Below are positions 14,836 through 18,210 of a stretch of 64,000 nucleotides of DNA, piece by piece. Origin of the DNA: Geodermatophilus saharensis (GTDB taxonomy: Bacteria > Actinomycetota > Actinomycetes > Mycobacteriales > Geodermatophilaceae); contig NZ_FZOH01000001.1 in assembly GCF_900188205.1 (NCBI RefSeq), positions 530,359 through 594,358 of the forward strand. The letters run 5' to 3'. The position numbers were made by a program, and so were the translations under genes. The first letter of the stretch is position 1. The number at the start of each line of letters is the position of its first letter. The notes beneath the pieces are model-generated. The model did no database searches. It saw only the letters and a list, made by a program, of their open reading frames with translations, and was not told the DNA's origin.

Positions 14836-14870
14836 GTGTCCCGGCCCGGTGTCGGTACCGGCTGGGACAC
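14836..14870. promoter_or_regulatory. Inverted repeat in the mrx1/uvrD2 divergent promoter
   Basis: GTGTCCC (14836-14842) and GGGACAC (14864-14870) form 7-bp arms 21 nt apart around a GGTACC palindrome. It lies between the divergent mrx1 and uvrD2 starts and could be a regulator site. No known operator is recognised. Confidence 0.3.
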
Positions 14871-14913
14871 TCGGTGCTGCCCGCCCGCCCCGTTCCCCGA
14901 GGAGACCCCCCAC

Positions 14914-16941
14914 ATGCCGCGGACCGCCGACCTGCCCGGGTCCCCGGCCACCTCCGCCGGCGCCGAGGCGGTGCTGGCCGGCCTCGACGACGAGCAGCGC
15001 GAGGCGGCCTCGGCCGTCAGCGGCCCGGTCTGCATCCTCGCCGGTGCCGGCACGGGCAAGACCCGCACGATCACCCACCGCATCGCCTACGGCGTGCACG
15101 CCGGCGCGTTCGTGCCCGAGCAGGTGCTGGCGGTGACCTTCACCGCCCGCGCGGCGGGGGAGCTGCGGTCCCGGCTGGCCGGCCTCGGCGTCGGCGGGGT
15201 GCAGGCCCGCACCTTCCACGCCGCCGCCATGCGCCAGCTGCGCTACTTCGCCCCGCGCGTGCTCGGCGGTCCCATGCCGCCGCTGGTGGAGAACAAGCTG
15301 CGCCTGGTCGCCTCGGCGGCCACCCGCGCCCGGCTGAGCACCGACCGCACCAGCCTGCGCGACCTCGCCAGCGAGATCGAGTGGGCCAAGACCACCCTGG
15401 CCACCCCCGAGGACTACGCCAAGCGCGCGCAGGCCGCCGGCCGCGAGCCGCCGTTCGACGCCGCGACCGTCGCCCGGGTCTACGCCTCCTACGAGTCGGC
15501 CAAGCAGCGCGACGGCGTGCTCGACTTCGAGGACCTGCTGCTCGTCACCGCCTACGCCCTCGAGGAGCACCCCGAGGTCGCCCGGCAGGTGCGCGGCCAG
15601 TACCGGCACTTCGTCGTCGACGAGTACCAGGACGTCAACCCGCTGCAGCAGCGGCTGCTCGACGCGTGGCTGGGCGGCCGGGCCGACGTGTGCGTCGTCG
15701 GCGACCCCAACCAGACGATCTACTCCTTCACCGGCGCCGACCCCGACTACCTCCTGGGCTTCGCCGACCGCTTCCCCGACGCCGCGGTGGTCAAGCTCGA
15801 GCGCGACTACCGCTCGACGCCGCAGGTGGTGGGGCTGGCGAACAAGCTGATCGGGCAGGCGCCGGAGCGCAAGAGCGTCTTCCGGCTCAAGCTCCTCGGC
15901 CAGCGGGCCGAGGGCCCCGAGCCGCGCTTCCTGGAGCACCCCGACGAGCCCACCGAGGCCGCCGCCGTCGCCCGGGCCTGCCGGGCGATGATCGAGGCCG
16001 GGACGCCGGCGTCGGAGATCGCCGTGCTGTTCCGCATCAACGCGCAGTCGCAGGTCTACGAGTCCGCGCTGGCCGACGCCGGGGTGCCCTACGTGCTCAA
16101 GGGCGGGGAGCGGTTCTTCGAGCGGCCCGAGGTGCGCGAGGCCGTCGTCCTGCTGCGCGGCGCCGCGGCGGGCGGCAGTGAGCCGGGCGCCCTGGTGACC
16201 ACCGTCCGCGACGTGCTGGCCTCCACCGGCTGGGTCGAGCACCGCCCGCCGCCGGGGGGAGCCGCGCGCGACCGCTGGCAGTCGCTGGCCGCCCTGGTCG
16301 ACCTCGCCGTCGACCTCGTGGCCGAGGACCCGACCACCGACCTGCCGCGCTTCGTCGCCCACCTCGCCGAGCGGGCCGACGCCCAGCACGCGCCGACCGT
16401 CCAGGGCGTCACCCTGGCCTCGATGCACGCGGCGAAGGGCCTGGAGTGGGACGCGGTGTTCGTCGTCGGCCTGGTCGACGGCGTGCTGCCGATCGCGCAG
16501 TCGCTGTCGCGGCCCGACGCCGTCGAGGAGGAGCGGCGGCTGCTCTACGTCGCCGTCACCCGTGCCCGGGAGCAGCTGACGCTGTCGTGGTCGCTGGTCC
16601 GCAACCCCGGCGCCAAGCGGCCCCGCCCGCGCAGCCGCTTCCTCGACGGACTCGTCCCGGGGTCCACGCCCACCGCCCCGGCGCCGCCGCGGAAGGCGAA
16701 GAGGGCGAAGGTCGTCCTCGACGGCGAGGCCGGCGAGCTCTTCGAGCGGCTGCGCGCCTGGCGCAGCACCACCGCCCAGGCCGCCTCGGTGCCCGCCTAC
16801 GTCGTCTTCACCGACGCCACGCTGCAGGCCATCGCGGAGGCCCGGCCGTCGAGCCTGCGCGAGCTCTCCGGGCTGCCCGGCGTCGGCGCCCGCAAGCTCG
16901 ACCTCTACGGCGAGGACGTGCTGGCCACCGTCAGCGGCTGA
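14914..16941 (+). CDS. uvrD2: UvrD2, ATP-dependent 3'-5' DNA helicase with HRDC domain
   Basis: 675 residues. Helicase motifs: Walker A GAGTGKTRT (~44-52), VTFTARAAGELRSRL (Ia), DEYQDVN (~236), GDPNQTIYSFTGAD (III), HAAKGLEWDAVFVVGL (V), YVAVTRAR (VI). The C-terminal 50 residues (TLQAIAEARP ... LPGVGARKLDLYG) form an HRDC domain, diagnostic for UvrD2. The linker between helicase and HRDC holds no cysteine, whereas the mycobacterial enzyme has a tetracysteine module there. GAGGAG lies before ATG 14914. In mycobacteria UvrD2 is an essential helicase. Confidence 0.93.
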   Translation: MPRTADLPGSPATSAGAEAVLAGLDDEQREAASAVSGPVCILAGAGTGKTRTITHRIAYGVHAGAFVPEQVLAVTFTARAAGELRSRLAGLGVGGVQARTFHAAAMRQLRYFAPRVLGGPMPPLVENKLRLVASAATRARLSTDRTSLRDLASEIEWAKTTLATPEDYAKRAQAAGREPPFDAATVARVYASYESAKQRDGVLDFEDLLLVTAYALEEHPEVARQVRGQYRHFVVDEYQDVNPLQQRLLDAWLGGRADVCVVGDPNQTIYSFTGADPDYLLGFADRFPDAAVVKLERDYRSTPQVVGLANKLIGQAPERKSVFRLKLLGQRAEGPEPRFLEHPDEPTEAAAVARACRAMIEAGTPASEIAVLFRINAQSQVYESALADAGVPYVLKGGERFFERPEVREAVVLLRGAAAGGSEPGALVTTVRDVLASTGWVEHRPPPGGAARDRWQSLAALVDLAVDLVAEDPTTDLPRFVAHLAERADAQHAPTVQGVTLASMHAAKGLEWDAVFVVGLVDGVLPIAQSLSRPDAVEEERRLLYVAVTRAREQLTLSWSLVRNPGAKRPRPRSRFLDGLVPGSTPTAPAPPRKAKRAKVVLDGEAGELFERLRAWRSTTAQAASVPAYVVFTDATLQAIAEARPSSLRELSGLPGVGARKLDLYGEDVLATVSG

Positions 16942-17008: not shown

Positions 17009-17047
17009 TTAAATGCGTTGCGCCGCCCGCGCGACCTTCCCTACTGT
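17009..17047 (+). promoter_or_regulatory. WhiB7-type promoter of the whiB7 leader
   Basis: TTGCGC (17018-17023, -35) and TACTGT (17042-17047, -10) are 18 nt apart. TTAAAT (17009-17014) stands exactly 3 nt before the -35, in a region otherwise almost free of A/T. WhiB7 is known to activate promoters with an AT-rich stretch 3 bp upstream of the -35 through its AT-hook. This therefore looks like an autoregulatory site. Confidence 0.6.
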
Positions 17048-17134
17048 CCTGACTGCGCCCGAGGGACCACCACGGGCGCGCCAGACCGAGCCCGGTGCGA
17101 CAGCCGGGTTCCGACCCCGGGAGGAGAGGTTCCG

Positions 17135-17452
17135 ATGATCGACACGCGCTTCGCTCTCGCCCCCGCCGGGGTCTCCGCCTGGGGCGCCCTCGACGTGCGT
17201 CCGGCCGGTACCGGCGCGGTTCCGACCGCTCGCCACCGGTACGCGGTCGTCCGTGTCCTGAAGCCGTCCGACCTGGCCGGCGGCGTCTGCACGGCGCCCG
17301 GCGCCCCGCTCCAGGGGACCGGTGTGCCCACCGTCGGCGGCACCGCCGCGCCGTTCGGCACCGACGTGATCGGCACCGAGGTCTTCGACACCGACATCTC
17401 CACGCAGCGCACCACCCTCGGGATCCACTCCCCGGGGAGACCGCAGAGCTAG
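17135..17452 (+). CDS. 105-codon leader ORF upstream of whiB7 (possible regulatory uORF)
   Basis: ATG 17135 follows GGAGAGG, a good ribosome site, within the whiB7 leader. The predicted product is rich in Gly, Thr, Pro, Val and Ala (for example VGGTAAPFGTDVIGTEVFD) and matches no family I know. It ends 21 nt before the attenuator-like hairpin at 17474-17507. In mycobacteria and streptomycetes, whiB7/wblC leaders hold a uORF whose stalled translation under ribosome-targeting antibiotics lets RNA polymerase read through. The layout suggests the same role, though this ORF is unusually long and could also make a protein. Confidence 0.6.
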   Translation: MIDTRFALAPAGVSAWGALDVRPAGTGAVPTARHRYAVVRVLKPSDLAGGVCTAPGAPLQGTGVPTVGGTAAPFGTDVIGTEVFDTDISTQRTTLGIHSPGRPQS

Positions 17453-17473
17453 CCGCTCGACCGGTCCTCCTCG

Positions 17474-17507
17474 AGGCCGCGGAACCCGAACCCGGGATCC
17501 GCGGCCT
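17474..17507 (+). terminator. Attenuator-like terminator in the whiB7 leader
   Basis: AGGCCGCGGA (17474-17483) pairs perfectly with TCCGCGGCCT (17498-17507) across a 14-nt loop. The stem is followed by TCGTCTTTCT, the most U-rich run nearby. It lies between the leader ORF and whiB7, where a transcription attenuator would be expected. Confidence 0.65.
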
Positions 17508-17594
17508 TCGTCTTTCTCCGCGGCACCCGGCCCCGACCACCCGGTCGGCGGGCCCCGCCGGCCGCGCAGACGACGAGTACGAGGAGGAGCGGCA

Positions 17595-17942
17595 GTGCTA
17601 CAGACGATCGACCGCCCGACGTCCCACCGCCGAACCGGGCTCCCCCGGACCGGTGGCGCCACCCCGCGGACGCCGCACACGCCCCTGGCCCCGGCACCGG
17701 TGCGGCGACCGCTGCCGTGCCGCGGGACCGACGACCCGGACCTGTGGTTCGCCGAGAGCCCCGCGGCCCTCGAGCAGGCCAAGGTCCTGTGCGGCGACTG
17801 CCCGGTCCGCGACGCCTGCCTGGCCGGTGCGCTCGACCGCGGCGAGCCCTGGGGCGTCTGGGGCGGCGAGATCTTCGAGCGAGGTGTCGTCATCCCGCGC
17901 AAGCGACCGCGGGGTCGTCCCCGCAAGGTCGTCGCGGCGTGA
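17595..17942 (+). CDS. whiB7: WhiB7 transcriptional regulator
   Basis: 115-residue WhiB-family [4Fe-4S] protein. Cluster ligands are C42, C66, C69 and C75. The family turn GVWGGE is at 87-92, and the basic AT-hook RGRPRK at 106-111 separates WhiB7 from other Wbl proteins. WhiB7 binds the primary sigma factor and activates intrinsic antibiotic-resistance genes when translation is inhibited. GTG 17595 follows GAGGAGGAG. The gene keeps the mycobacterial position next to uvrD2. Confidence 0.95.
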   Translation: MLQTIDRPTSHRRTGLPRTGGATPRTPHTPLAPAPVRRPLPCRGTDDPDLWFAESPAALEQAKVLCGDCPVRDACLAGALDRGEPWGVWGGEIFERGVVIPRKRPRGRPRKVVAA

Positions 17943-17947
17943 TGGAG

Positions 17948-18000
17948 GGCCCCGTCCTCCTCACCCCTCGCACGCTCGGGGTGAGCCTCGGGACGGGGCC
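17948..18000 (+). terminator. Two-step hairpin after whiB7
   Basis: GGCCCCGTCC (17948-17957) pairs with GGACGGGGCC (17991-18000). Inside it CTCACCCC (17960-17967) pairs with GGGGTGAG (17978-17985). It follows whiB7 directly and has no U-tract; probable terminator or mRNA 3' end. Confidence 0.65.
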
Positions 18001-18045: not shown

Positions 18046-18210
18046 ATGACCAGCTACGAGTACGACCTCGCCGTCACGCGGCTGACCGAGCTGCGTGCCG
18101 AGGCCGACGCCGCCGGCCGCCTGCGCCGGCTGCAGGCGGCCCGCCGCTGGGCCCGCCGCGCGGAGTACGCCAACCGGCGGGCCGCGCGGGCCAGCGCCGC
18201 GGTCCGCTGA
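18046..18210 (+). CDS. Small arginine-rich protein, 54 aa
   Basis: ATG 18046 with GAGGA 7 nt upstream opens a 54-residue frame. The product starts MTSYEYDLAVTRLTELRAEADAAG and continues as an Ala/Arg-rich amphipathic helix with about 14 Arg. No family is recognised. It lies between two strong hairpins (17948-18000 and 18274-18318), so it may have its own transcript or be read through from whiB7. Its helical, Arg-spaced composition with a good ribosome site supports a real gene. Confidence 0.55.
   Translation: MTSYEYDLAVTRLTELRAEADAAGRLRRLQAARRWARRAEYANRRAARASAAVR

Follow-up and report, generated by a model that had tools for sequence, protein, structure and literature searches.

Introduction

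Burian and Thompson (2018) and Lee, Lee and Roe (2022) reportedly described attenuators of whiB7/wblC that comprise an upstream ORF (uORF). In the accessible excerpts of the literature, whiB7/wblC controls intrinsic antibiotic resistance in actinomycetes, its uORF senses several classes of ribosome-targeting drugs, and the gene is attenuated by this uORF together with an antiterminator; in mycobacteria, a conserved uORF is found with a terminator. The excerpt of PMC7157823 adds that the site bound by WblC, GAAAWY, lies 3 nt 5' of the -35 element, and that of PMC12121999 (eLife 2025) states that antibiotic-induced stalling within the whiB7 uORF had not yet been tested.

Two other kinds of leader bear comparison. 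As far as its excerpt goes, PMC8298421 describes Arg/Lys-X-Arg/Lys (hereafter +X+) as an arrest motif for macrolides and ketolides, and reports that the leader ErmDL arrests ribosomes at Arg-Leu-Arg. In ErmDL, this motif occupies residues 6-8 and a methyltransferase gene is controlled; in ErmDL-type leaders, the stall remodels the mRNA. On the other hand, ilvB1 of mycobacteria is presented in the excerpt of PMC13236596 as having an amino-acid attenuator.

Here, we analyzed the whiB7 leader of Geodermatophilus saharensis (4.89-Mb genome) within a window of 64,000 nucleotides, that is, the whole stretch of DNA under study, to which all coordinates refer; the leader and whiB7 lie on the + strand. 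Read from 5' to 3', the locus has a promoter of the WhiB7 type, a uORF of 105 codons, a terminator and whiB7 itself. The anatomy is that of a member of the whiB7/wblC uORF attenuators, and we are highly confident that the locus is a uORF attenuator of whiB7. The original prediction had recognized this anatomy, with a WhiB7-type promoter, a leader ORF and an attenuator as in the published ribosome-stall model, and was incomplete regarding uORF length and a possible protein function. In keeping with the described part of these systems, the locus combines a promoter box 3 nt before the -35 (PMC7157823), a uORF, a predicted Rho-independent terminator, and a predicted antiterminator sharing sequence with both the uORF and the terminator. 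Unlike in the available descriptions, the uORF has another sequence, its tail is conserved as RNA, and its stop codon lies in the antiterminator loop; the RLR/RPR/RHR motif and the GGN-ACC-GGT-STG element described here set it further apart. With ErmDL-type macrolide leader peptides, as excerpted (PMC8298421), it shares Arg-Leu-Arg (+X+) in the leader ORF, but here the motif occupies codons 33-35 in a uORF of 105, what follows downstream is a transcription terminator and the gene of a transcription factor, and the arrest is predicted. With ilvB1 (PMC13236596, excerpt) it has in common a leader ORF with competing antiterminator and terminator and, unlike the amino-acid attenuators of that type as described there, the whiB7 leader has no stretch of codons specifying a product amino acid. 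What this leader may add to the known attenuator is a tail conserved as RNA and as an antiterminator arm, and a +X+ motif kept within a hypervariable body, which together give a sequence-level account of what the leader may sense.

Architecture of the whiB7 leader

All the ordered elements that had been proposed from the sequence are present, each at the place given or at most 1 nt away. The AT-rich WhiB7-type box TTAAAT (17009-17014) lies, as predicted, exactly 3 nt 5' of the -35 element TTGCGC (17018-17023), which is separated by an 18-nt spacer from the -10 element TACTGT (17042-17047). This distance between box and -35 is a hallmark of whiB7/wblC attenuators, a WhiB7 site is predicted here, and transcription would start near 17054. 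A scan of the whole 4.89-Mb genome for TTAAWT-N3-TTG-(20-21 nt)-TANNNT gave a single hit, and a scan with the reversed pattern gave none. Moreover, an equivalent promoter was found in 76 of the 79 leaders of the family, as compared with 0.13% of mononucleotide-shuffled regions, a count made with a pattern that was relaxed after the sequences had been viewed and on loci oriented by tblastn. Among the 79 leaders scanned, L032, L033 and L127 gave no match. The family consensus is TTAATT-N3-TTGACC-18-TANNNT, and the -35 stands 98-169 nt upstream of the uORF start.

The predicted intrinsic terminator (17475-17517) consists of the stem GGCCGCGGA-A-CCCG/CGGG-A-TCCGCGGCC (17475-17506) followed by TTCGTCTTTCT. 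Between the uORF stop codon and the stem lie 22 nt, and not 21 nt as originally proposed. A Rho-independent terminator is thereby predicted between the uORF and whiB7, as in the known attenuators. When searched for, the terminator arms were present in all 79 family leaders, and 99.1% of the cells in the family alignment are paired. Since 10 of the 13 pairs never vary, this nearly invariant hairpin provides conservation and no covariation.

The whiB7 gene (17595-17942) has a GTG start, is preceded by the Shine-Dalgarno sequence GAGGAGGAG (17581-17589) and encodes a product of 115 aa that matches the Pfam Whib family (6.8e-15). Searching its own genome with this protein yielded five matches, the first being the protein itself and the next sharing 41% identity. 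The whiB7 orthologue lies directly downstream of the leader, as in the whiB7/wblC uORF attenuators, and 107 of 112 family genomes have a whiB7 match. A second, divergent whiB7-like match (60% identity) was seen in one genome of the same genus (G001:C17:2272-2520, locus L161), within a long open frame.

Constraints on the uORF

The uORF (17135-17452) begins with ATG at 17135, ends with TAG at 17450-17452 and is preceded by the Shine-Dalgarno sequence GGAGGAGAGG (17120-17129), with a score of 6 of 6. A tblastn search with the leader peptide returned 32 locus records at E <= 1e-3, including the window itself and some same-strain duplicates. The alignment across Geodermatophilaceae, which had been suggested as a check of the prediction, showed that the ORF is conserved, with one and the same uORF tail anchoring 79 of 84 distinct family leaders. 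The resulting set of 79 leaves out L137, L139, L140, L148 and L149, even though the first three of these show an ORF. By its sequence, the uORF appears to be translated and, as in other whiB7/wblC attenuators, is conserved and has a Shine-Dalgarno sequence. The 79 family uORFs start with GTG (40), ATG (36) or TTG (3) under a rule that favors a good Shine-Dalgarno sequence and an A/T-rich second codon.

The length of 105 codons had been read correctly from the sequence, and the contrast drawn with the short uORF of mycobacteria is not peculiar to this family. Family uORFs range from 71 to 132 codons. Outside the family, a class rule that combined a Shine-Dalgarno score with the presence of a T-tract 40-75 nt 3' of the stop picked a uORF in 91 of 117 loci (the 26 loci without a passing uORF were left out), and 70 non-redundant ones span 31-158 codons. 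Since such lengths occur across the class, and uORFs of about 105 codons are also present in Streptomyces-like genomes, length is not the novelty of this leader. In many of the loci listed for other families the T-tract begins about 50-65 nt after the stop, an apparently near-constant geometry for which the class rule selects. In some rows, such as L073, this rule may have picked the wrong start or ORF. The description of the peptide as Gly/Thr/Pro-rich was roughly right for the family, where Ala leads: the 79 uORF bodies contain 17.0% Ala, 12.4% Thr, 12.4% Gly, 9.0% Val and 8.8% Pro. The body is hypervariable across the family and in some species contains expansions in tandem, of which GTDVFGTDVFG is one. 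In L007, L008, L010 and L014, such expansions in the middle of the uORF are partly degenerate, for instance GTDVFGTDVFGTDV. It therefore seems that uORFs change in length through the gain of repeats.

The tail of the uORF behaves differently from a coding sequence such as whiB7. In its last 12 codons, identity is highest at third positions (0.896, as compared with 0.827 at first and 0.877 at second positions), while whiB7 shows the usual reverse (0.916, 0.899 and 0.743 at first, second and third positions); both series come from 43 of the 79 sequences, those of the window's tail type that were matchable in both the tail and whiB7. This opposite pattern indicates that the uORF tail is under constraint at the RNA level. 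The result also bears on the idea, raised in the original prediction, that the uORF might encode a small functional protein acting away from the leader. Its 105 codons, good ribosome site and conserved reading frame would suit such a protein. However, Pfam gave no match to the peptide of the window at E values up to 1, the length varies between 71 and 132 codons within the family, the body is hypervariable, and the C-terminus is best conserved at third positions. A trans-acting protein is for these reasons hardly credible.

The predicted antiterminator

The last uORF codons (17418-17449) are predicted to form the 5' arm of an antiterminator whose 3' arm (17455-17489) includes the 5' arm of the terminator. 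Together they make an imperfect hairpin of 26 bp, whose apical loop contains the stop codon of the uORF. In silico, this structure overlaps both the uORF and the terminator, as expected for an attenuator of this kind. Across 78 distinct sequences, 88.5% of the cells are paired, as compared with 26-56% when the partners are slid. Seven pairs are changed on both sides (shuffled mean 3.5, with 0 of 500 shuffles reaching 7), and further pair types are no more frequent than in shuffles in the same 78 sequences (19 versus 18.8). Three pairs are often broken, in 32, 28 and 27 of the 78 sequences. The changes on both sides amount to 33 cells, of which 18 belong to a single outermost pair (U-A to C-G), all within the 19 rows of a second tail type. 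These 18 are not simple compensations, because the true register is shifted in the second tail type. When each tail type is read in its own register, the outermost helix pairs in 298 of 300 cells in the 60 rows with the window's register, and in 108 of 114 cells in the 19 rows where the register is shifted by one nucleotide. It should be noted that the antiterminator was tested as a named structure derived from L001, so that the test leans towards it. RNAalifold, run on alignment A1, recovered the terminator and did not find the long antiterminator.

Regarding energetics, the antiterminator has a lower predicted free energy than the terminator hairpin alone in every one of the 79 leaders (means of -40.5 and -28.2 kcal/mol, respectively), its outer helix contributing 6.5-15.3 kcal/mol. 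Once an inner hairpin is added to the terminator, the order is inverted: -56.4 versus -40.6 kcal/mol in the window, and -55.4 versus -40.5 kcal/mol for the family mean. Since the inner hairpin plus terminator is the most stable state overall, antitermination would have to be kinetic, depending on the order of folding, or aided by a protein. Kinetic antitermination is also what occurs in the trp attenuator. In stepwise folding, the terminator first appears in the MFE structure on average 4.7 nt before the end of its own 3' arm when the uORF tail is free, and 9.1 nt before it when the tail is occluded. Thus, a free tail delays the predicted terminator by about 4 nt.

A conserved +X+ motif in the uORF

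Within the hypervariable body, the window encodes Arg-His-Arg (CGC CAC CGG, 17231-17239), a +X+ motif that is RPR or RLR in most relatives. We found +X+ in 75 of the 79 family uORFs (mean 28.2, maximum 41 in 1000 shuffles, which control for composition and not for relatedness), and exactly one copy in 73 (mean 23.1, maximum 37 of 1000). RLR alone occurs in 49 family uORFs (mean 1.9, maximum 7 of 1000). Of note, RLR is encoded in 12 different ways with variable third positions, which indicates that +X+ is constrained as a peptide.

The signal extends beyond the family. In 101 non-redundant actinomycete uORFs, +X+ is present in 85, as compared with 39.5 in shuffles; these divide into 35 of 37 family uORFs (shuffled mean 13.3) and 50 of 64 others (26.3). 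When 400 gapped residue-class patterns were ranked in this set, +X+ had the highest z (10.0, the next being 5.5), and Pro-Pro was the most depleted (z -5.6; in 7 of 101 uORFs versus 30.2 shuffled). Other spacings are not enriched in the 101 uORFs: ++ occurs in 43 versus 39.8, +XX+ in 35 versus 39.1 and +XXX+ in 29 versus 38.3. A held-out set was then drawn from 60 further loci, previously unused matches chosen non-randomly and treated with the same rule, of which 11 were left out. Agreement in the remaining 49 uORFs is weaker, with +X+ in 36 (mean 23.9, maximum 35 of 1000), Pro-Pro in 4 (mean 11.7, minimum 4) and +XX+ mildly high (30 versus a mean of 23.7). Among the 21 held-out uORFs unlike the earlier ones the signal is small, with +X+ in 16 versus 9.4 (shuffle maximum 17) and Pro-Pro in 1 versus 4.5 (minimum 0). 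The motif is absent from 4 of the 79 family uORFs, 18 of 91 outside the family and 13 of the 49 held out, and RLR is rare outside the family (9 of 91, versus 1.6 shuffled). Altogether, the +X+ signal is very strong among family uORFs and of moderate strength elsewhere.

The original prediction held that this uORF could sense a different block, and our results narrow that suggestion to the conserved +X+ motif, at which arrest is predicted. In all 75 motif-bearing family uORFs, 29 codons or more separate +X+ from the stop, and the motif precedes the antiterminator arm, so that a ribosome arrested at +X+ would not keep the switch from refolding. In its occurrence beyond chance and in this position, the motif agrees with what is expected of a macrolide-arrest leader. 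By analogy, ribosomes that carry a macrolide or ketolide would stall at Arg-X-Arg (RHR here), and we lean towards +X+ being a working drug-arrest site. Counting against a macrolide sensor, the excerpt of PMC8298421 reports that erythromycin depends less on +X+ than telithromycin does.

Pro-Pro avoidance fits this picture. Pro-Pro is a drug-independent slow signal for ribosomes, and stalling at polyproline is cited in the literature. A sensor with +X+ and without Pro-Pro would stay quiet when no drug is present. Pro-Pro avoidance also weighs against the alternative that the uORF is a general sensor of translation rate without a dedicated stall site, in which slowing along some 90 codons would free the antiterminator, and +X+ would be kept by descent or for another reason. 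Several facts speak for such a sensor: the accessible literature reports that drugs of many classes, and also starvation for amino acids, cause induction, uORFs are long and variable, and the +X+ signal is weaker outside the family and was measured against shuffles that do not correct for relatedness. A rate sensor would nevertheless leave unexplained a motif that is spacing-specific and kept, with synonymous variation, in a hypervariable body, as well as the avoidance of Pro-Pro; we consider it unlikely. Very unlikely is a uORF acting mainly as an amino-acid attenuator, for instance for arginine, in which a shortage of charged tRNA would stall the ribosome at Arg or other codons. Starvation for amino acids induces whiB7/wblC in the excerpted literature, and Arg makes up 6.8% of the family uORF bodies; yet no enrichment is seen for Arg/Lys pairs spaced otherwise, as the ++ count above illustrates, and no run of a single amino acid was seen by eye in the window's uORF.

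Judged by titles, abstract openings and excerpts, we found no report of +X+ in whiB7 uORFs in the searched part of the literature, which did not extend to key papers of 2018, 2022 and 2024, and we make no claim of priority. A conserved, spacing-specific +X+ names candidate codons for drug sensing. If a stall site at +X+ is the true reading, macrolides and ketolides would depend on the motif, and other drugs need not.

Proposed mechanism

We consider it likely that the leader is a ribosome-controlled transcription attenuator of whiB7 in which Arg-X-Arg serves as the macrolide/ketolide stall site. The anatomy, its conservation, the RNA-level constraint on the tail, the support for pairing and the enrichment of +X+ are observations of this study, and the regulatory steps that we infer would all run as follows. 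WhiB7 would activate the promoter at 17009-17047, after which a ribosome would translate the 105-codon uORF. By reaching the stop, the ribosome would cover, or keep clearing, the uORF tail; no antiterminator would form, and the terminator (17475-17517) would halt RNA polymerase. If the ribosome stalled upstream or was not loaded, the tail (17418-17449) would pair with 17455-17489 and hold the terminator 5' arm, and transcription would continue into whiB7. Arg-X-Arg (RHR here) would arrest macrolide- or ketolide-bound ribosomes upstream of the antiterminator arm, and other drugs or a shortage of amino acids could slow the ribosome at any position of the uORF. Given that Pro-Pro is avoided and that the tail is conserved as RNA, such a sensor would seem to be divided into two parts: a sensing stretch that evolves fast and freely, and a switch that stays fixed.

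A mid-uORF element

RNA polymerase pauses at elemental sites with the consensus G-11 G-10 T-3 T-1 G+1. The segment GGGACCGGTGTG (17315-17326), in the middle of the uORF and encoding GTGV, resembles such a site and was found in many relatives. The element can be written GGN-ACC-GGT-STG, and a loose form of it occurs in 51 of the 79 family uORFs (7.4 in codon shuffles, maximum 16) and in 23 of 91 outside the family (8.4, maximum 18). It is missing from L015, L018-L027, L029 and L030. In several relatives, the positions matching the pause consensus in GGGACCGGTGTG are kept while the amino acids change. The element is in frame in 52 of 53 family cases, a placement that does not separate the two roles it may have, an RNA polymerase pause site or a second peptide signal. 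As a separate candidate, pairing of the GTG codons with the post-stop sequence ACCGGTCC was dropped after inspection by eye; the second tail type includes leaders in which the codons are retained and their complement is missing.

A broader reading, which we offer tentatively and to which we give slightly less than an even chance, is that whiB7/wblC uORFs across Actinomycetes contain a dedicated drug-sensing signal. In these uORFs, a +X+ arrest site would have been selected within an otherwise free-running, Pro-Pro-avoiding peptide, joined in some lineages by a mid-uORF RNA polymerase pause element that would hold the polymerase and the translating ribosome at a matching pace until the switch is made.

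Surroundings of the leader

Between the terminator and the whiB7 ribosome-binding site lies a second inverted repeat, GGTCGGCGG/CCGCCGGCC (17543-17563). GGTCGGCGG is found in 70 of 79 relatives and a repeat of at least 7 bp in 71 of 79, both counts being made without a chance control, and among the 10 folds listed the repeat is formed only in part. The sole Rfam match near whiB7, a Guanidine-II riboswitch on the minus strand (17910-17963), reaches 23.7 bits, short of the gathering score of 32, and is probably due to chance. On the 3' side of whiB7 there is an ATG ORF of 54 codons (18046-18210) with no Pfam match. The leader and whiB7 are located 3' of a gene for a UvrD-like helicase with an HRDC domain (14836-16941). 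A similar protein end is found upstream at the locus of Mycobacterium sherrisii (L077), and the neighborhood may for this reason be old.
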